Positions 4,431 through 13,724 of a DNA stretch of 34,407 nt are shown here, in pieces. Position numbers and translations under genes: made by a program. The stretch is from Desulfurococcales archaeon (GTDB lineage: Archaea; Thermoproteota; Thermoprotei_A; Sulfolobales; AG1). A model generated the notes under the pieces. The model saw only the letters and a list, made by a program, of their open reading frames with translations, was not told the origin of the DNA and searched no databases. Within the stretch, counting starts at the first letter, position 1. Every line of letters begins with the position of its first letter. The stretch is taken from the NCBI GenBank assembly GCA_015521765.1, contig WANO01000010.1, positions 1-34,407 on the forward strand, read 5' to 3'.

Positions 4431-4922
4431 CTAGAGCTCTTTGAGTAGCTCCTCAATGGCGTCTTTGAGGCTTTTAAGCTTGTTTCTGAGTTCAGGAACG
4501 TGTTTTTTGGCTACCTGTTTCAGCTCTGGATCTATATCGCTGTACTTTATCTTGTGAAGTATATCTATGTGGGCCCTAAAGACCCTGGTTAGGTGCTCTA
4601 TGTTTTTATCTACAAGATCAATGATGAATTTTAGGCCCCTATCGCTCAGTGAGTATATTATGAGCGGTATTTTTCCTCTCTGCTCCATCTTTCTCTCAAC
4701 CAGACCCATGGACTCTAGTTTTTTAAGTATTGGATATATTGATCCTGCACTCGCCCTTATGTTGCCTGGAGCCATAGATCTTATTCTCTTCATTATCTCG
4801 TATCCATGTGCATCTCCCATGAGGAGTGAGAGCAGAACTAGATAGGTTATCCTGATCTTTGGCTCGAGCTCGACAACTAGGCTGGACAGCTCTGTCGAGT
4901 TGATCTCTCTAGCTATATTCAT
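4431..4922 (-). CDS. PadR-family transcriptional regulator
   Basis: A 163-residue DNA-binding protein. Residues about 26-102 form the PadR winged helix: LVLLSLLMGDAHGYEIMKRI, then GSIYPILKKLESMGLV as the recognition region and a wing ending IIYSLSDRG. The C-terminal part (105-163) is a helical dimerisation segment. A 24-residue N-terminal extension precedes the usual start. PadR proteins are dimeric repressors, commonly of transporter genes, and often bind palindromes overlapping the promoter. It is divergent from the giant MMPL gene with an 85-base gap. The candidate operator at 4996-5009, and a copy of its half-site (ATCGGTG, 4942-4948) in front of its own gene, suggest that it controls both. 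Confidence 0.88.
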   Translation of the reverse strand: MNIAREINSTELSSLVVELEPKIRITYLVLLSLLMGDAHGYEIMKRIRSMAPGNIRASAGSIYPILKKLESMGLVERKMEQRGKIPLIIYSLSDRGLKFIIDLVDKNIEHLTRVFRAHIDILHKIKYSDIDPELKQVAKKHVPELRNKLKSLKDAIEELLKEL

Positions 4923-4977
4923 TTACCTACACCCTGCCCCCATCGGTGTTTCTCGAATAAATTTAATTCCCCATACA

Positions 4978-4985
4978 TATAAAAA
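4978..4985 (+). promoter_or_regulatory. TATA box for the MMPL gene, placed for a leaderless transcript
   Basis: TATAAAAA is centred about 26-27 bases before the GTG at 5008. That is the standard archaeal distance from TATA centre to transcription start, so the mRNA should begin at or next to the start codon. Confidence 0.6.
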
Positions 4986-4995
4986 TATATTGATA

Positions 4996-5009
4996 ACCGA
5001 TATATCGGT
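4996..5009. promoter_or_regulatory. Candidate PadR operator, perfect 14-bp palindrome
   Basis: ACCGATATATCGGT is its own reverse complement over all 14 bases and spans roughly -12 to +2 of the predicted start site. A protein bound here would block polymerase. The half-site ATCGGTG (5004-5010) recurs at 4942-4948, between the probable TATA and start of padR. TATATTGATA occurs on both sides of the palindrome, at 4986-4995 and 5016-5025. Binding by PadR is inferred from position only. Confidence 0.55.
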
Positions 5010-8000
5010 GGAAGATATATTGATAGGGATAATAGCTAGAAGGCCGCTAGCTACTATAGGCTTCTGGATTATCGTGATGATCCTGCTTCTCCCGATCTTC
5101 TTTAAGATCGAGGAAGCAGTAATCTATAATGAGGAATCTATGCTGCCTAAAGACATGGAGAGTATAAGGGCTCTCGAGATACAAAGAGAGATAGCTGGTG
5201 GCGATTCGGAGAAGGAGATAATCTTTATTGATGGCGTCGACATAGGCGATCTAGAGACCAATCTCAGACTCATAGATCTTTTCAGGGATATAGAAGGCTC
5301 CGTAATAGGTAGATATGCCGAGGAGATAGACGGCTACCCCTATATTGTATCGGATATTTTTAGCTCAATCAATTCAAGCTTGGAGAGCATGATCCATAAC
5401 ATATCAAACATATCCACAGCACTATATAGCGCCAGCATAGAGGTCATCGATGGGTTATCCGGCACCGTTGAATCATTCGAATCCCTAAACGAGCTTATTA
5501 GAGGTATCAACGAGCTGATACTATCTGCCGATGCAGAATACAGCAGGCTGGTTAATGAAACAACAAGTATTTCATGGATAGCTATTCAGATTAGGGAGCT
5601 TGATCTCCAGTACAGGTATTTAACCACGCAGCTGGAGAGACTGATAAGATCTATTCCAGATATATCGGAAAGTATAGTCAGGCTGGATAGAGCATATATA
5701 GAGGCCACCGATAGATTCGCTGTTCTAGCCTTAAGGGCTAATGATACAGCTGAAGTAGTTAGGCTTGCTGATCGGGTATATATAGATCTGTACCGAGAGA
5801 TAAAGAATGTTATGGGTATGAGGTCCCAGATGCTGGATATGTTATCCGATAGAGAACGTGTAGGCAGTCTCATGCTTCTCGTATCAAAGACCTGGTGGGA
5901 TATAGCCAGGACATACTTCTACTATTCCGCAGATCCATCAAGATACTATGAGCTAACAAACTTAACCTTTATAGACGAGAGATACTCACCTCTACCTCCC
6001 GATAAAGCCTCCTACATATACGCTAGTGTAGCTGGACTTGTGAACGGATCAAACATAAGCCTCGACGACGCCGTGACCGAAACCGCCTTTACCCTTCTTG
6101 CTGGAGAGCTCGGGATAGGGGACCCCAATATAATATATATACTGAAGTACGCATGGATAGAATCCCTAAATAAATATAAGGTATCCAACAGCATTCAGTG
6201 TTTAGTCTGCATCCTAACACTTCCAAGCCAGGAAAATCCAGTTGCCCATATAGATTCTCAGCTTGCGCTTCTTAAAGCCCTGGTATTGGTGGGGTCTAGT
6301 GCGTCGGAGTCTATATCTAGCGATCCCTCCAGGTATTTTGAGATCGTTGTTTATGAGTATCTATCCAAGTCTATTGGAGATGAATTAGCTAGTTATCTAG
6401 CGCCGAGGATAGCAAGCAACAACATCTCAAAATTCGATTTAGCGCTTGCTGCATCTAGAATCGTGGAGGATGTCATTAGGATTCCTGGGGTTTCTGGCCC
6501 CCTACTTAATATCCTTATGCAGTATGATCCTTTTATCAACGGGTCGTTGCTGAAGGATAGAGATAAGCTATCTAGAGCTGTAACCGATCTACTCTATAGC
6601 CTGGATGAAAGATTGAGAAGCATCGATAAATCCATACTATATGAGATATCGTACACCAGCATCGGTGGAGAGGCTTCGAGAAATCGACTCGCCGAGCTAG
6701 CCATAAGGTATATTGAAGCCGAGATTATGGATGGGCGGGATTTAAATGCTTATCCGGTAGGGAATATTGATTTCCTTAGGGTTCTGGATCCTGAGGCTAG
6801 GGGTTTACTGATCTATAATAGATCCCTTCTTAACCAGGCTTTAAAGAGTATTGTTGTTGAGAGCTTCAGGGAGTTCAATATATCGATCAGCGACGATATT
6901 GCCAGCAGGATAATCGCCCTTGGCTACAGACAGAACGTGAATAGAGCCGATGTATCGGTTGTTTCCCTAGATATTTTAAGAGATCAATTATCCACAATAT
7001 ATCAAGATGATTCTAAATACCTGATCGATAAGATAATCGAGGTATTATCCATATATGACCCATACGCCAACGCTTCACTGGTGTATGATCGGGAGGTATA
7101 CTTCAATTCACTATACGGTTTGCTTGAGGCTATAGCTGGAGACTATATGGAGCGGAGCTATATAGCTAAACTAGCCGATCTCCTAGCAAGCGATCCAACA
7201 CCCCCAAGAAGAGTACTAGCTGGATTTATAGCTGAAATGATCTCTGATAAAGTAGCAGGATACCTAGGCGAGGAAGAATTCCCCGAGTACAACAGATCTA
7301 GGATAGCCGCCTTATCGAGGGCTGTAGAGGAGGTTTTGCTGAAATACGATCCTGCGGCATTGGGAACTATTGAGAAGAGCAGATCACTAGCGGTTAGCGC
7401 CTTACTCGATGTTGTTGAGGCGTTCGATCCTGATGTCTATAGCTTCATCGCATCCAATCTATCTAGAGCGGATCTATATGCGCTTCTAGATGATCCGTTA
7501 TACTATATAGATCTATCTAAAAAGCTGTTTAGGGAAAACATATTTGCGGCACTAGAAAAAGAGTTCGAGGAAATCGAGCTTAAAGAGGTCTATATAGATC
7601 TCGTAAACAGAATAGTTGATAGATGGCCCGATATAGATGACGAAACCATATGGCTGTGGATAGGTGTGGAGTTGAAGAACTATATGGAGGAGGTAGATCT
7701 CGGCGAATTAGCCGATCTGGATCTGCTTAATAGGTATCTAGATGATGTTGTTGATAGATCTATAGAGGTTTCTAGAGGCTTAAGCTCCCTAGATCAGGTT
7801 ATAGGCGATCTCGCCAGATCTATTTTCATAGACACGCTAGAGAACCTGCTTGATGAATTTGGCATCTTGGTTAGTAAAGATCGTGATGGATTCGTGGTTC
7901 TGTTTACCCCTATCGGGGATGATATATACAGCAAGTATGAGGCGGGTAGATCTATATACAGCACCGTGTACTTCAAACTATCTAAAGAGTTCCCCAATGC

Positions 8001-9750
8001 GGAGGTGTACTGGACGGGACAGGTAGCTATAAGTAGAGAGATAGAGGAGGCCGGTAGCGGTGAGGCCGAGAGGATAAGGCTTCTCAGCCAGGTGCTCGTC
8101 TTTATAGTTCTACTTGTAGTCTTGGAGAGTTTAGCGGCGGTGGCTATACCGTTTATAGGAATCTTTATCGCTGCAGTTGTTAGTGGTGCATTGATCTACT
8201 TTATAGCTACGGGTGGATACATGGATCTATTTAACATAACCAGGCTCCTAATGATTACCACAGCATTCGGTGTTGGAGCTGACTATACGGGTTATCTGGT
8301 CACCAGGTTCAGGGAGGAGATATCGAGGCATGGCGACCCGGTTAAAGCGGCTGAAACAAGCTTGAGGCGGAGTGGTCCCGCGATAGTTGTTAGCGCATTA
8401 ACCACTATGGCTGGTTTCGGATCATTAACTCTAGGCTGGGAATTCCCATTGTTTAGAAGTCTAGGTATAGCTCTCCCGGTAACCGTTGGTGTTGTGGCAC
8501 TTGTATCCCTAACTATTGTTCCAGCCATACTCTCCCTATTGGGTAGAGGTGGCTGGTTCTGGTGGCCCAGAAAGGTTGCCCTGTCTAAGTATGGGAGCGT
8601 TTCTGAGAGCAGATTGGTGAGGTATCTAGCTGGTAGGGCATGGATTGTTGGCGTAATATTTGTTTTACTGGCTGTTGGCAGTATTGTTGGTATCGGTTCG
8701 ATCGAGGCCTCTCATGATATTAGGCTTTTTCTATCTAGAGATAGTCCGGCTCTCTCTGTTGTTGATCTCGTTATGGGGGAGGTTGATCCAGGTGTGATCT
8801 ATCCGATCACTATAGCTATTGATTTAGGTGGTAGCAGGGTTTCGGATGAGGTTCTGGCGTATATAGAGGAACTCGCTGGCAGGATAGAGAGGCTGGACAA
8901 TATAAGGAGTGTTTTTGGGCCCACGAGACCCTCTGGGGTGCCTCTAGATAACGTATCTCTATCCAGCGTATACAGTTCTGGCGGTGACCGCTTCATTTCG
9001 GAAGCTAAAGACCTAGTTTATCTTGAGGCCGTCTTATCCATAGATCCATTCAGTGCTGAAGCCCTCGAAGTTGTGGACAGGGTTAGAGCTGTAGCCAGAG
9101 ACTGGGCCGAGGATATAGGTGCTAGAGTATATGTTGGTGGAGCATCCGCATTTTCGAGAGATCTTGATATACTGGTTAACGATATATTCTGGTTTAGGGT
9201 TCTTCCAACAGCCACGATCCTGATGATAGCTATATTCACACTGATCTTTGGAGGCTTTCCGGCATCGCTGATATCGGTGGCTATAGTTATGGTGTCTGGC
9301 CTCATAGGTATACTCTTAACGGGCTTCGTCTCCAGGGCTGTATTCGACTCTCCGATGCTGTGGTTCCTTCCCCAGGTTGTTTTCACCGCGATCATGGGTG
9401 TCGGGATGGACTACAACAGCTTCTATATGGCTAGAGCTAGAGAGGAGTGTGTCTATAGAGGGAGGTGCGGGATAGAGGGATCAGCCATGGCTTCAGGAGC
9501 TGTAGGCAGACTAGTTATAGGGCTGGCATTTATTGTTGTAGCTGCATATAGCTCACTTATACTGGCGGCCACACCAGGGAATATCCAGATAGGTGTAGCC
9601 ATCTCGATAAGCGTTATAGTGGCTTCATTCATGGCTTCATACATTGTTGCACCTATCCTTATAGCTAAGCTGGGTGTGTTGGCCTGGAAACCATGGGGTA
9701 TGAGGAGTCCTAGAGAAGGAGATAGTGTTGGGGAGGAGAAAAATATGTAG
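5008..9750 (+). CDS. Giant MMPL/RND-superfamily membrane protein with a large repeat-bearing ectodomain
   Basis: A 1580-residue putative exporter of the MMPL (RND) superfamily. Membrane segment 1 is at residues 14-33. An extracytoplasmic domain of about 990 residues follows, then five or six membrane segments (about 1027-1180), segment 7 (about 1205-1232), a second loop of only about 160 residues and a final membrane bundle (about 1395-1560). The proton-relay motifs are duplicated as expected: GVGADY with D1092 and GVGMDY with D1468. Residues about 120-285 look like coiled coil. Residues about 460-850 hold a degenerate repeat of about 90 residues around a YDP motif. Many N-x-S/T sites support an outside location. 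The frame is open from 4900, but GTG 5008 fits the TATA box, and upstream codons overlap padR. Substrate (lipid, drug or envelope component) unknown. Confidence 0.87.
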   Translation: MEDILIGIIARRPLATIGFWIIVMILLLPIFFKIEEAVIYNEESMLPKDMESIRALEIQREIAGGDSEKEIIFIDGVDIGDLETNLRLIDLFRDIEGSVIGRYAEEIDGYPYIVSDIFSSINSSLESMIHNISNISTALYSASIEVIDGLSGTVESFESLNELIRGINELILSADAEYSRLVNETTSISWIAIQIRELDLQYRYLTTQLERLIRSIPDISESIVRLDRAYIEATDRFAVLALRANDTAEVVRLADRVYIDLYREIKNVMGMRSQMLDMLSDRERVGSLMLLVSKTWWDIARTYFYYSADPSRYYELTNLTFIDERYSPLPPDKASYIYASVAGLVNGSNISLDDAVTETAFTLLAGELGIGDPNIIYILKYAWIESLNKYKVSNSIQCLVCILTLPSQENPVAHIDSQLALLKALVLVGSSASESISSDPSRYFEIVVYEYLSKSIGDELASYLAPRIASNNISKFDLALAASRIVEDVIRIPGVSGPLLNILMQYDPFINGSLLKDRDKLSRAVTDLLYSLDERLRSIDKSILYEISYTSIGGEASRNRLAELAIRYIEAEIMDGRDLNAYPVGNIDFLRVLDPEARGLLIYNRSLLNQALKSIVVESFREFNISISDDIASRIIALGYRQNVNRADVSVVSLDILRDQLSTIYQDDSKYLIDKIIEVLSIYDPYANASLVYDREVYFNSLYGLLEAIAGDYMERSYIAKLADLLASDPTPPRRVLAGFIAEMISDKVAGYLGEEEFPEYNRSRIAALSRAVEEVLLKYDPAALGTIEKSRSLAVSALLDVVEAFDPDVYSFIASNLSRADLYALLDDPLYYIDLSKKLFRENIFAALEKEFEEIELKEVYIDLVNRIVDRWPDIDDETIWLWIGVELKNYMEEVDLGELADLDLLNRYLDDVVDRSIEVSRGLSSLDQVIGDLARSIFIDTLENLLDEFGILVSKDRDGFVVLFTPIGDDIYSKYEAGRSIYSTVYFKLSKEFPNAEVYWTGQVAISREIEEAGSGEAERIRLLSQVLVFIVLLVVLESLAAVAIPFIGIFIAAVVSGALIYFIATGGYMDLFNITRLLMITTAFGVGADYTGYLVTRFREEISRHGDPVKAAETSLRRSGPAIVVSALTTMAGFGSLTLGWEFPLFRSLGIALPVTVGVVALVSLTIVPAILSLLGRGGWFWWPRKVALSKYGSVSESRLVRYLAGRAWIVGVIFVLLAVGSIVGIGSIEASHDIRLFLSRDSPALSVVDLVMGEVDPGVIYPITIAIDLGGSRVSDEVLAYIEELAGRIERLDNIRSVFGPTRPSGVPLDNVSLSSVYSSGGDRFISEAKDLVYLEAVLSIDPFSAEALEVVDRVRAVARDWAEDIGARVYVGGASAFSRDLDILVNDIFWFRVLPTATILMIAIFTLIFGGFPASLISVAIVMVSGLIGILLTGFVSRAVFDSPMLWFLPQVVFTAIMGVGMDYNSFYMARAREECVYRGRCGIEGSAMASGAVGRLVIGLAFIVVAAYSSLILAATPGNIQIGVAISISVIVASFMASYIVAPILIAKLGVLAWKPWGMRSPREGDSVGEEKNM
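6390..7470 (+). repeat. Four degenerate ~90-residue repeats inside the MMPL ectodomain
   Basis: Four protein segments share hydrophobic-LxxYDP-x-A/N-x-G/S-L-x-x-x-R followed by a helix. The D of the YDP/LDP motif is at residues 507, 594, 684 and 781, so spacing is 87, 90 and 97. Examples are MQYDPFINGSLL, RVLDPEARGLLI, SIYDPYANASLV and LKYDPAALGTIE. The DNA is not repetitive, so the duplication is old. Confidence 0.6.
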
Positions 9751-9768: not shown

Positions 9769-9782
9769 TAAAAATATTTTTA
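9769..9782. terminator. Symmetrical terminator between convergent genes
   Basis: TAAAAATATTTTTA is a perfect 14-bp palindrome giving a T5 run on each strand. It sits between the MMPL stop (9750) and the end of potD, whose TAA stop is part of it. It could end both transcripts. Confidence 0.5.
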
Positions 9783-10853
9783 GGCTAGCTTAACCTCTGT
9801 CCAGAGCTCATCTATCTTTCTTCTAACATCTTCACTCAAGGCAACCATGGGGTAGAGCTTCCACTCCTTGGGCCACTCATAGAACTTTCTGTCCTCGGGA
9901 GCTATTTTCTCTAGAGCCGCGCTACTTACGTGCTTGTATTTCTCTATCTCTATAAACTTTGCCCCTGCCTCTCCTGAGAGCGAGAAGTTGATGAACTCGT
10001 GAGCTAGATCGGGGTTCTGAGATGTTTTTGCTATGAACTGGCTATCGATCCATGTCATCGCCCCCTCTTTAGGAACAGTGAAGGTCCCAGGCCAATTATA
10101 TTCTTTAGCTGCTCTAATAGCTCTTCCAGCAGTGAGGAGGCCAACCCACACATCTTCGGAGATGAACAGCTGCATCGCCTCCTCATAGCTGCTCCAGTAC
10201 TTTTTGACCAGGGGCTTCTGCTGGATCAATAGCTCCTTTATCTCGTCCCACTTCTTGGGGTTGTAAGGGTCGTCTCCAATATACAGCGCTGTCATCTGCA
10301 CAGCATATATACCGTAGTCGGGCATAAGTATCTTTCCTTTATACTTCTCATCCCAGAGGACCCCCCAGGAATCGGGCTCGGGAGAAACTCTATTCTTGTT
10401 GTAGAGCAAGCAGTACATCCCGACAGATATGGGTACCGAGTACAATCTGCCATCCTTCTTGAAGGGTTCCAGAAGTCTAGAATCAACGTATCTCAGGTTG
10501 GGTATCTTGCCCTCATCGATAGGCTGGGCCAAACCTTCAGCGATAGCCTTCTGAACCCAGTCGGTTTCACCAACAGCTATGTCTACAGGCTGGTTACCCA
10601 CTATAGCGGTATACCACACCTCGTTGCTGTCGTATGTCGTCCAGACAACATCAACACCCGCTTTCTGCGCTTCGAATGTTTGCTCGGCCCACTGGCCCCA
10701 ATCCTCGTACCAGTTATATATGTAGAGTGTTCTTCTACCTCCTCCACCAGCACTGAACCAGTAATATAGTCCTCCACCAACGACCACAGCTGCTACTCCT
10801 GCAGCTATAGCGGCCTTTATGAAGCTTCTTCTCCCAACATCTGTCTGACCCAT
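9780..10853 (-). CDS. potD: Spermidine/putrescine-type ABC binding protein with Tat signal
   Basis: A 357-residue extracellular solute-binding protein of the PotD family. The N-terminus carries a twin-arginine signal, G-R8-R9-S-F-I-K, then a hydrophobic stretch (about 14-34) and a glycine-rich linker. The protein is therefore expected to cross the membrane folded. The mature part begins TLYIYNWYEDW, matching the PotD opening (NW aromatic motif), with VVWTTYDSNEVWY and DWVQKAIAEGL further on. Aromatic and acidic residues of this kind form the polyamine cage. It is last in the minus-strand pot cluster, 132 bases after potC. It has its own AT-rich promoter region and a GAGGTGGGTG ribosome site before the ATG, consistent with extra expression of the binding protein. 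A related cationic substrate cannot be excluded. Confidence 0.87.
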   Translation of the reverse strand: MGQTDVGRRSFIKAAIAAGVAAVVVGGGLYYWFSAGGGGRRTLYIYNWYEDWGQWAEQTFEAQKAGVDVVWTTYDSNEVWYTAIVGNQPVDIAVGETDWVQKAIAEGLAQPIDEGKIPNLRYVDSRLLEPFKKDGRLYSVPISVGMYCLLYNKNRVSPEPDSWGVLWDEKYKGKILMPDYGIYAVQMTALYIGDDPYNPKKWDEIKELLIQQKPLVKKYWSSYEEAMQLFISEDVWVGLLTAGRAIRAAKEYNWPGTFTVPKEGAMTWIDSQFIAKTSQNPDLAHEFINFSLSGEAGAKFIEIEKYKHVSSAALEKIAPEDRKFYEWPKEWKLYPMVALSEDVRRKIDELWTEVKLA

Positions 10854-10985
10854 ACACCCACCTCAAATCTATAATTTTATTGTAAGTTATAAATATATCT
10901 ATATTAAAACATTTCCAACGAGTCATTGTGGATGATATGAATTAAAATTAATCATCAGGCTATCTACTCGAACATCTAGAGATAT

Positions 10986-11768
10986 CTACCTATATCTAGA
11001 TCTAAGCATCTGGGAGACAACAGCAGCAGTTATACCGATGTAGATCACTACAGAGGCAATGGCGTTTAGAACGTTGGTTATACCGAATCTAAGCTGGCTC
11101 CATATCCATAGGGGGAGCGTCTGAAACCCAGGAGGAGCGAGAAAATAGGTTACGATGAACTCGTCGAAGGAGATTATAAATGATATCAGGAAGGCGCTAA
11201 GGATACTTGGATATACAAGCGGGAGAGTGACGTACCTCAGGGTCTTTATATTGTCTGCACCAAGATCCATGGCCGCCCACTCAAGGGTTTTATCTATCCT
11301 GCTCATGCCAGCATTGAGTATCAGCGTTGATAGAGGCAAAGCCAAGAGTGTATGCCCAACAACTATGCTCCAGAACCCTGTTTTTAGGGTTAGCACCCTT
11401 GATATGAATAGAAGCATTGATATACCAATAATGAGAGGCGGTATGAGCATTGGTAGATACACCAGCGACTCTATAATGGGCTTAAATCTAACCCTATACC
11501 TGGTTAAGGCGAATGCCAGCATGAATCCTAGCCCAACAGACAGCGCTGATGATACTACAGCAATCACTATCGAGTTCACTAGTGCTGTGACGACTGTCTG
11601 GTCTCTAAACATATCCTCATACCATTTAAGCGTGAATCCAAGGGGCGGGAAGCCGAATAGCCCCTTGGTGATGCTGAATGAGTAGAGTATGATCACTACC
11701 GATGGTAGATAGAGAAATATAAATATCAGGGCTACAGCCAGCCTAAAGATATAGTCCTTCAAACTCAT
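10986..11768 (-). CDS. potC: Polyamine-type ABC permease (PotC)
   Basis: A 260-residue permease with about six membrane segments. The EAA loop reads EWAAMDLGADNIKTLRYVTLP. The first segment (LAVALIFIFLYLPSVVIIL) begins just after the start MSLKDYIF. I chose the ATG at 11766-11768 because it overlaps the potB stop in ATGA, a normal coupled junction. The frame extends to 11867, but those codons lie inside potB and look non-coding. It forms the transmembrane pair with PotB. Confidence 0.88.
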   Translation of the reverse strand: MSLKDYIFRLAVALIFIFLYLPSVVIILYSFSITKGLFGFPPLGFTLKWYEDMFRDQTVVTALVNSIVIAVVSSALSVGLGFMLAFALTRYRVRFKPIIESLVYLPMLIPPLIIGISMLLFISRVLTLKTGFWSIVVGHTLLALPLSTLILNAGMSRIDKTLEWAAMDLGADNIKTLRYVTLPLVYPSILSAFLISFIISFDEFIVTYFLAPPGFQTLPLWIWSQLRFGITNVLNAIASVVIYIGITAAVVSQMLRSRYR

Positions 11769-12589
11769 ATAACAAACACCCTTGTAGTGAGGTATCTCCT
11801 GAATACAATCAGTATCGATAAAACAATCATTATCATGAGGACTGCAAGTGCGGAGCCGAAGGGCCAATCGATCGTTTGCTTGAACTGCCTCTCGATGATG
11901 TTTCCAAGCATTATATCGCCCGGACCTCCCAAGAGTGCCGGTGTGACGAAGGATCCGAATACCAGGACGAACACGATGATAGATCCAGCTATCACGCCAG
12001 GCTTAGTTAGTGGAAGCAGAATATTGGTGAATATCTTTAGGGGTCCCGCACCAAGGTCGCTGGCTGCATCGATATAGGACTTCTCGACATTCCTCATAGA
12101 TGAGTATATAGCTAGAAACATTAGTGGCGAGTACACATGTACGAAGCCTATTATAACGGCTATTGGTGTATATAGAATCTCTATAAACAACCACTCCAGC
12201 CCCAGAAACGACAATACACCATCGATAAATCCCTCACCCCTTAAGAGTACTATCCACCCATACATTCTGGCTAGAAAACCAGCCCAGTAGGGAACTATCA
12301 CAAGCAGGACATAGAGGTCCCTCTTCTCTTTCGGAACCTTGAACCAGATGTAGTATGCTAGAGGATACATTATGATGAAGCTAAGGATCGTTGCGGCAAC
12401 ACTGTAGCCCAGGGTTCTCACCAGGGTTGAGAAATAGATCGGCTTAAAGAACCTCATATAGTTCTCTAGAGTGAATTCCGGAACCACTACAAGCCCTTCA
12501 AGCCTATAGAAGCTATACGGGATCAAAGTAAAGAACGAGGGGATAATCATGAACACGACTAGGAAAGCCACGGGTATGGATATAAACAC
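11765..12589 (-). CDS. potB: Polyamine-type ABC permease (PotB)
   Basis: A 274-residue permease, the partner of PotC. It has about six membrane segments and an EAA loop, YIDAASDLGAGPLKIFTNILLP. The listed start is GTG 12589, but that falls at the edge of the first membrane segment and has GGAG about 13 bases upstream. The frame is open back to 12645 with a plausible hydrophilic leader (ending GDRSLWKY) but no ATG, GTG or TTG, so the N-terminus is uncertain. It follows potA by about 50 bases. Confidence 0.85.
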   Translation of the reverse strand: MFISIPVAFLVVFMIIPSFFTLIPYSFYRLEGLVVVPEFTLENYMRFFKPIYFSTLVRTLGYSVAATILSFIIMYPLAYYIWFKVPKEKRDLYVLLVIVPYWAGFLARMYGWIVLLRGEGFIDGVLSFLGLEWLFIEILYTPIAVIIGFVHVYSPLMFLAIYSSMRNVEKSYIDAASDLGAGPLKIFTNILLPLTKPGVIAGSIIVFVLVFGSFVTPALLGGPGDIMLGNIIERQFKQTIDWPFGSALAVLMIMIVLSILIVFRRYLTTRVFVI

Positions 12590-12638
12590 ATATTTCCATA
12601 GGCTCCTATCGCCAGAACCTGCTCCGCTATCTTTTTCA

Positions 12639-13724
12639 CTACTGGCTAAGGATCCTCACCCTGTCAGGTCTATAGAGAACCTTCACCCTTGCTCTACGCT
12701 CGATCCAGAAAGCCTCCCCCTTAGGTAGCCTGACCCTCAATTCACCGGAGCCTGTATCGATATAGCAGTCCACGAAGCTACCCATAAATATATAGTCCCT
12801 TACTACCCCGTCTATATGTCTGTATCCCTCAGGGACCTCGCTTCTTGATAGCATAAGCTCCTCTGGCCTTATAGCTATAATTATGTTTGAGCCCACATCT
12901 ATATCTTTGCCGGAGCTGTCTGCCCTAATCGAGAATCCACGATCCGTTTCAATAGTTATGGAATTCCTATCTATATCTCTAACAACCCCCTTAAGAATGT
13001 TGGCCTCACCAATGAAATCTGCAACGAAACCCGATGAGGGATTCTCATATATCTCCTCCGGGGTCCCCACCTGCAGTATTTTACCTCTATTCATAACCAC
13101 TATAATATCGGCCATGCTCATAGCCTCCTCCTGGTCGTGGGTAACATGGATGAACGTAGATCCAAGCTTCCTCTGGAGATCTTTAAGCTCCCTCTGCATC
13201 CTTCTCCTAAGCTTAAGATCCAGCTGACCCAACGGCTCGTCGAGAAGAAGAACAGGAGGCTCATTGACGAGAGCCCTAGCCAGAGCCACCCTCTGCTGCT
13301 CCCCGCCGCTGAGCTGCGTAGGGTACTTATTTATGTGGGAACCCATATTAACCAGGTCTAGAGCCCACTTAACCTTCCTAGCTATCTCATCCCTAGAATA
13401 CCCCTTCATCCTGAGACCAAAGGCTACGTTATCGAAAACCGTCATATGTGGGAATAGAGCGTAGTTCTGGAACACCGTATTAACGTTCCTCTTATATGGC
13501 GGCTTGTTGGTTACGTCCTCGCCCTCGAGATATACTTTACCACTATCCGGCTTCTCGAATCCGGCTATTATCTTCAGCAGCGTGCTTTTGCCAGCGCCAC
13601 TAGGCCCCAAGATAACTATGAATTTCCCCTTCTCTATAGAGAGGGAGACTCTATCCAACGCTATGTGGTCCCTGAACCTCTTACTCACGTTATCGACAAC
13701 AACACTGTAGCTTGATGTATTCAA
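12639..13724 (-). CDS. potA: Polyamine-type ABC transporter ATPase (PotA)
   Basis: A 361-residue cytoplasmic ATPase. Walker A is GPSGAGKST at 40-48, the signature LSGGEQQR at 138-145 and Walker B LLLDEP at 159-164, followed by the H-loop THDQEEA. Residues about 280-361 form the TOBE-type regulatory domain typical of PotA/MalK. The TTG start at 13724 follows AGGTGATT, a near-perfect ribosome site, and a TATA-like element lies just upstream. It is the first gene of the minus-strand potABCD cluster. Confidence 0.92.
   Translation of the reverse strand: MNTSSYSVVVDNVSKRFRDHIALDRVSLSIEKGKFIVILGPSGAGKSTLLKIIAGFEKPDSGKVYLEGEDVTNKPPYKRNVNTVFQNYALFPHMTVFDNVAFGLRMKGYSRDEIARKVKWALDLVNMGSHINKYPTQLSGGEQQRVALARALVNEPPVLLLDEPLGQLDLKLRRRMQRELKDLQRKLGSTFIHVTHDQEEAMSMADIIVVMNRGKILQVGTPEEIYENPSSGFVADFIGEANILKGVVRDIDRNSITIETDRGFSIRADSSGKDIDVGSNIIIAIRPEELMLSRSEVPEGYRHIDGVVRDYIFMGSFVDCYIDTGSGELRVRLPKGEAFWIERRARVKVLYRPDRVRILSQ

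Follow-up and report, generated by a model that had tools for sequence, protein, structure and literature searches.

An apparently undescribed four-copy helical repeat in the first extracytoplasmic loop of a predicted archaeal MMPL/RND exporter

The closest solved counterparts of the transporter considered here are the mycobacterial proteins MmpL4 and MmpL5. In Mycobacterium tuberculosis, MmpL5 carries in its periplasmic domain 2 a coiled-coil insertion of 196 residues, proposed to form a tube across the periplasm (PMC12501195). The window, a stretch of 34,407 nucleotides of DNA from a thermophilic Desulfurococcales archaeon, codes for a protein that shares their transporter core (phmmer against MmpL4, E = 2.6e-27; top Foldseek matches 9syt, 9syj and 9mvz) and their Asp-Tyr relay pairs and has, likewise, a long helical insertion with a coiled-coil hairpin in an extracytoplasmic loop. 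This insertion, however, occupies loop 1 (residues 110-950), before TM2, instead of periplasmic domain 2, which places the protein outside the MmpL4/MmpL5 coiled-coil subgroup. It is several times larger than that of MmpL5, and it adds four-helix modules that are absent from MmpL proteins. The membrane core is also significantly similar to two catalogued exporter models: it scores 107.5 bits with that of the hydrophobe/amphiphile efflux-3 (HAE3) family (TIGR00921), far below the membership cut-off of 351.9, and 195.5 bits with the ActII-type MMPL model (TIGR00833), far under its cut-off of 874.7, and neither model has a comparable ectodomain. As for the modules, they recall TPR, HEAT, ARM and other alpha-helical repeats in being short, all-helical and arranged in tandem, but each has four helices, the DP turn is invariant, and there is no significant Pfam match. 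We have a true repeat, apparently undescribed, within an already known kind of transporter.

Two MMPL domains are recognized in the protein (PF03176, 192.4 bits against a gathering score of 20.5), which also has the two Asp-Tyr pairs of an RND proton relay. TM4 contributes GADY and TM10 contributes GMDY, and the aspartates of these motifs (1128 and 1504, counted from TTG 4900) are nearly invariant across the homologue alignment. Judged by its sequence, the protein is predicted to be a proton-driven MMPL/RND exporter. Its gene is the sole MMPL gene detected in the source genome (64% complete), with two domain matches in this one gene. The longest open reading frame around it extends from TTG 4900 to 9750 on the plus strand (1616 aa). 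Translation is nevertheless likely to start at GTG 5008, because the TTG start overlaps the divergent padR gene, a TATA-like element, TATAAAAATA, lies at 4978-4987, about 30 nt upstream of the GTG, and the homologues have their N-terminus close to the equivalent residue. Residue numbers of the repeat aspartates count from GTG 5008, as they did in a preliminary description of this DNA. Downstream, on the opposite strand, a spermidine/putrescine-like ABC importer cluster (9780-13724) codes for a binding protein, two permeases and an ATPase, and is followed by a gene for a DUF1028 protein.

Table 1. Coordinates of the exporter, its neighbour, and the modules and helices of its ectodomain. Paired bit scores of modules refer first to the single-copy profile, second to the Pyrodictiaceae-copy profile.
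Feature	Nucleotides	Strand	Residues or positions	Basis or remark
PadR-family regulator, divergent from exporter	4431..4922	-		PF03551, E=5.6e-14
Perfect 14-nt palindrome ACCGATATATCGGT	4996..5009			between TATA-like box and GTG start
MMPL/RND exporter gene	5008..9750	+	1580 aa from GTG 5008	PF03176, E=1.3e-56, two stretches
Long antiparallel helical hairpin, presumed stalk	5335..5847	+	110-185 and 202-280	AlphaFold2 model
D-x-x-Y periodicity inside hairpin	5530..5781	+	spacing 24, 28, 28	Asp codons 5530, 5602, 5686, 5770
Module R1	6418..6672	+	471-555; Asp 507 at 6526	profile 13.4 and 21.6 bits
Module R2	6673..6936	+	556-643; Asp 594 at 6787	profile 11.7 and 15.7 bits
Module R3	6937..7203	+	644-732; Asp 684 at 7057	profile 12.5 and 12.8 bits
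Module R4	7204..7497	+	733-830; Asp 781 at 7348	profile 19.8 and 18.0 bits
R1 helices			475-490, 496-506, 518-532, 541-552	AlphaFold2, 1-1194 model
R2 helices			558-574, 588-593, 605-622, 629-640	AlphaFold2, 1-1194 model
R3 helices			6-25, 27-43, Asp 44, short 50-53, 55-70, 76-88	R3-R4 model numbering
R4 helices			94-113, 119-140, Asp 141, 147-150, 152-166, 168-177	R3-R4 model numbering

The ectodomain of the exporter contains four tandem copies of one module, R1 to R4. The preliminary description had recognized these segments and located their four aspartates correctly (residues 543, 630, 720 and 817 in the longest frame); the limits it gave to the array, 6390-7470, move to about 6418-7497, and the modules, which it had put at some 90 residues, measure about 85-98. 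Profile methods detect the repeat, including in a test free of circularity. A profile built from eight single-copy homologous fragments, with the window sequence left out, finds the four copies in the window protein at 11.7-19.8 bits (E-values per domain from 4.3e-8 to 1.4e-5) and no further stretch of that protein above -3.7 bits; its top score on 1000 shuffled ectodomains is 8.9 bits. The profile of Pyrodictiaceae copies returns the identical four, at 12.8-21.6 bits against a top shuffle of 4.3, plus one extra weak stretch of 4.7 bits that overlaps copy 4. In Smith-Waterman comparisons, copies 1-3 and 1-4 score above all of 1000 shuffles, copies 3-4 above 999, copies 2-3 and 2-4 above 996, and copies 1-2 above 968. 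HHalign of alignment slices gives probabilities of 95% for R1-R2, 97% for both R1-R4 and R2-R4, and 87% for R1-R3; the low values for R2-R3 (2%) and R3-R4 (40%) are explained by the fact that only the window sequence has copy 3. Indeed, R3 aligns to no homologue in the broad alignment and is, as far as seen, specific to the window. The flanks before R1 and after R4, searched for a fifth module, yield probabilities of at most 16%.

One might object that the four segments are not homologous at all, a short DP turn having recurred by convergence in helical proteins. The copies are, after all, only about 20-30% identical over their full length, and the two coiled-coil arms of the same loop match each other with an HHalign probability of 94%, which tells us that helical sequence can yield false matches with this program. 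Yet two coiled-coil stretches of the same ectodomain, used as controls, remain below 1% against the modules, the single-copy profile picks the four copies and nothing more, homologues hold one, two or three tandem copies at the same place, and the AlphaFold2 models give the copies a common helix register. Convergence is, in our opinion, scarcely credible. That the duplication operated at the protein level, as had been proposed, is borne out by these homologues, where the copies of the same module follow each other end to end (451-535, 534-612 and 616-698 in the homologue L037, for example). The DNA itself, also in line with the preliminary description, displays no direct repeat of at least 15 nt, and the duplication must therefore be old.

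A model of residues 1-1194 obtained with AlphaFold2 from 22 sequences (pLDDT 80, pTM 0.40) comprises, in this order, TM1, a porter-like strand-helix-strand unit, the helical hairpin, an all-helical domain (331-950), strands, and TM2-6. A second model, restricted to R3-R4 and based on an in-register alignment (pLDDT 89, pTM 0.71), gives both modules the same layout, helix A - helix B - DP turn - helix C - helix D, and helix C starts at D+11 in four copies out of four across the two models. The matching four-helix modules that were anticipated are thus present in the predictions, a correspondence judged by predicted helix register rather than by rmsd. The motif can be refined to L(-4)xxY(-1)D-P-x-A-x-G-x-L-x-x-[ND](+10)-R(+11). 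Its DP core, already noticed in the preliminary description, is invariant in the 42 copies collected, but the terminal Arg then included in the motif, while common to the four copies of the window, is present in only 11 of the 42. The window copies also deviate in places, with LDP in copy 2, Ile for A in copy 1, Ala for G in copy 3 and Ile at +7 in copy 4.

In our reading, DP-x-A-x-G-x-L-x-x-N would be a structural turn whose residue D+10 acts as a helix N-cap, rather than a site for metal. To be sure, with D at position 1, G at position 6 and a hydrophobic residue at position 8, the loop resembles that of an EF-hand, and a very weak match to the EF-hand protein 8fns (E=7.3) is found in the PDB, so that one could imagine a degenerate calcium site stabilising the modules. 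However, position 3 is frequently occupied by E, G, L, R or A, and position 5 by E, R, Q, K or T; position 12 lacks a conserved acid (+12 can be T, E, S, D or A, and +11 is mixed), and no Pfam EF-hand match appears at E<=0.1. We rejected the EF-hand identity, as only position 1 fits and positions 3, 5 and 12 are not conserved as ligands, and we deem calcium stabilisation of this kind very improbable. The module appears to be an uncatalogued helical repeat. Among the 42 copies, no Pfam family is significant (DUF1824 comes best, with E 0.007 in three of the 42, the rest being single weak matches); Foldseek comparison of the R3-R4 model with solved structures has nothing at E<=0.001 (best E=3), and comparison with viral models gives no match. 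Profile search of PDB sequences retrieved a single entry, 8qad, a designed coiled-coil protein (E=0.0017 over 33 positions), which we took as a composition-driven helix match. The claim of novelty made at the outset accordingly holds: the repeat has no Pfam family and no solved structure, and no paper describing it was found in open-access text.

The loop between TM1 and TM2 that harbours the repeat is also rich in N-glycosylation sequons. The window ectodomain has 15 of these where 4.7 are expected; over all homologues, ectodomains total 712 against 177 expected, about a four-fold enrichment, while outside the ectodomain sequons are hardly enriched (65 against 43). This agrees with a loop placed outside the cell and fits its being glycosylated. 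The earlier reading, an old protein-level duplication in an extracytoplasmic MMPL loop, undescribed so far, is supported as far as it could be tested.

Relatives of the exporter, proteins of 907-1505 aa, were gathered by searching 197 genomes that belong to the order of the window, and their full open reading frames were retrieved. Their copy number varies in a graded way. Four modules are found in the window protein, three in all nine Pyrodictiaceae proteins that could be read through, two in L039 and L044, relatives of the same family as the window (AG1-like), and one in the Tiamatella-like L045 and L046 and in most other homologues; the short proteins of 907-935 aa (L062, L063, L065 and L068) have none. 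With a profile of the 42 copies, the module is detected in 49 of 214 genomes of the order, and in a phylum sample of 300 genomes the 11 positives all belong to this same order, with none outside it. The frames at these matches are those of this MMPL exporter, and no other type of module-bearing protein was noticed. In a tree built from the membrane core, module columns excluded, the window protein and its two-copy relatives form a group (support 100/100) which joins the Pyrodictiaceae (97/93), the single-copy proteins being placed outside; copy-number classes require three changes on this tree, the minimum possible. Within Pyrodictiaceae, copies mostly cluster according to position (f7r2 copies are separated from all others by one branch, as are f7r3 copies, with weak support; f7r1 requires two changes), which makes the triplication older than this family. 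The tree of copies of 84 residues did not assign those of the window to particular Pyrodictiaceae positions. As side observations, one Pyrodictiaceae exporter (L041, G007:C2:24500-29700) is split into frames of about 339, 264, 142 and 811 aa, either a broken gene or a sequencing error, and family f11 of the order (G011, G032, G077 and others) carries module-free MMPL genes, several to a genome, with frames of about 750-1195 aa.

The hairpin lengthens together with the array. Measured from Pro 111 to Arg 301, both of them conserved anchors, it amounts in the clade of the window to 111, 139, 163 and 190 residues for one, two, three and four modules, respectively, a slope of 26 residues per module (r=0.9996, with 12 proteins representing only about three independent steps), that is, 13 residues per arm or about 2 nm of helix. 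In the family as a whole, hairpin length and the length of the helical domain correlate with r=0.94 over 31 phylogenetic contrasts, which include short proteins with poorly aligned anchors; the raw correlation is 0.93 once hairpins under 90 are dropped. Length can also grow by other means, since L047-L049 and L054-L057 combine hairpins of 139-167 aa and helical domains of 540-600 aa with one or no detectable module. A search for hidden modules in these proteins uncovered one per group, using a procedure that recovered all three in Pyrodictiaceae. The co-lengthening would be most simply explained by modules packed along the hairpin, each taking up about 13 residues per arm; with a pTM of 0.40, the large model leaves this packing inferred, not directly seen.

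Modules could instead make a binding platform for an S-layer protein, a glycan or a partner subunit, more copies bringing higher avidity with no role in length. Helical repeats commonly bind proteins, a sequon stands at exactly D+10 in 17 of the 42 copies, and the identity of less than 30% among copies of one protein leaves room for different partners. Pure avidity, however, does not predict strict co-lengthening with the hairpin, and the most conserved positions are structural (DP, Ala, Gly, Leu and the N-cap). Such a platform seems to us possible, on the doubtful side.

Regulation must be considered as well. Drug-efflux genes are frequent targets of PadR regulators, and relatives of the divergent PadR protein adjoin the exporter in four other loci (phmmer E 4.6e-19 to 3.7e-12), divergent in L070 and L072 and downstream in L076 and L077; no PadR gene was found beside the exporter in the AG1 locus. 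The palindrome that precedes the exporter is a candidate PadR operator, an idea that is only suggestive because shuffling the region 2000 times yields an ungapped palindrome with arms of at least 7 in 16 cases, and none with arms of at least 6 precedes the Pyrodictiaceae genes of L070 and L072, so that conservation lends it no support. PadR might repress the exporter gene until substrate or stress appears.

Taken together, we picture a proton-coupled, PadR-controlled exporter, the first extracytoplasmic loop of which would have grown via tandem duplication of a four-helix module of about 88 residues, the modules stacking side by side along the hairpin, sheathing it, and each added one lengthening the stalk by about 2 nm. 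We hold the chances of this scenario to be about even. Its observed elements are the repeat with its graded copy number, the joint lengthening of array and hairpin, the sequon signature of an extracytoplasmic loop and the linkage to PadR; packing, a role as conduit, regulation and substrate are inferred. Pyrolobus fumarii, a member of the Pyrodictiaceae, has a quasi-periplasmic space of 40 nm (PMC3156397). It is this wide space, together with the coiled-coil tube of MmpL5, that leads us to interpret the ectodomain as a stalk with a sheath, along which exported substrate would move away from the membrane. By analogy with MmpL5, the stalk may conduct a membrane-derived substrate to the wide quasi-periplasm beneath the S-layer, or all the way across it; at the 11-12 nm or so estimated from its helices, it could not bridge 40 nm on its own. 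A bolder version, which we advance tentatively and think rather unlikely, makes of the modules, with a new fold, a molecular ruler, each bound to two stalk heptads per arm, the reach being tuned to the width of the quasi-periplasm and lineages gaining or losing modules and heptads together. Whatever its function, a series of one, two, three and four modules with matching stalk lengths allows a direct test of how ectodomain length relates to envelope geometry and to export, and bears on how single-membrane archaea with a wide space under their S-layer export bulky or greasy substrates. The module could also enter family libraries, where these exporters currently show their membrane core only.

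The hairpin has a periodicity of its own. Over the homologues, 59 D-x-x-Y motifs are found against 12.3 expected, and their most frequent spacing (18 of 32) is 28 residues, i.e. four heptads. This periodicity is also present in L034, L036, L037 and L043, and in several Pyrodictiaceae proteins the spacing is exactly 28/28/28.
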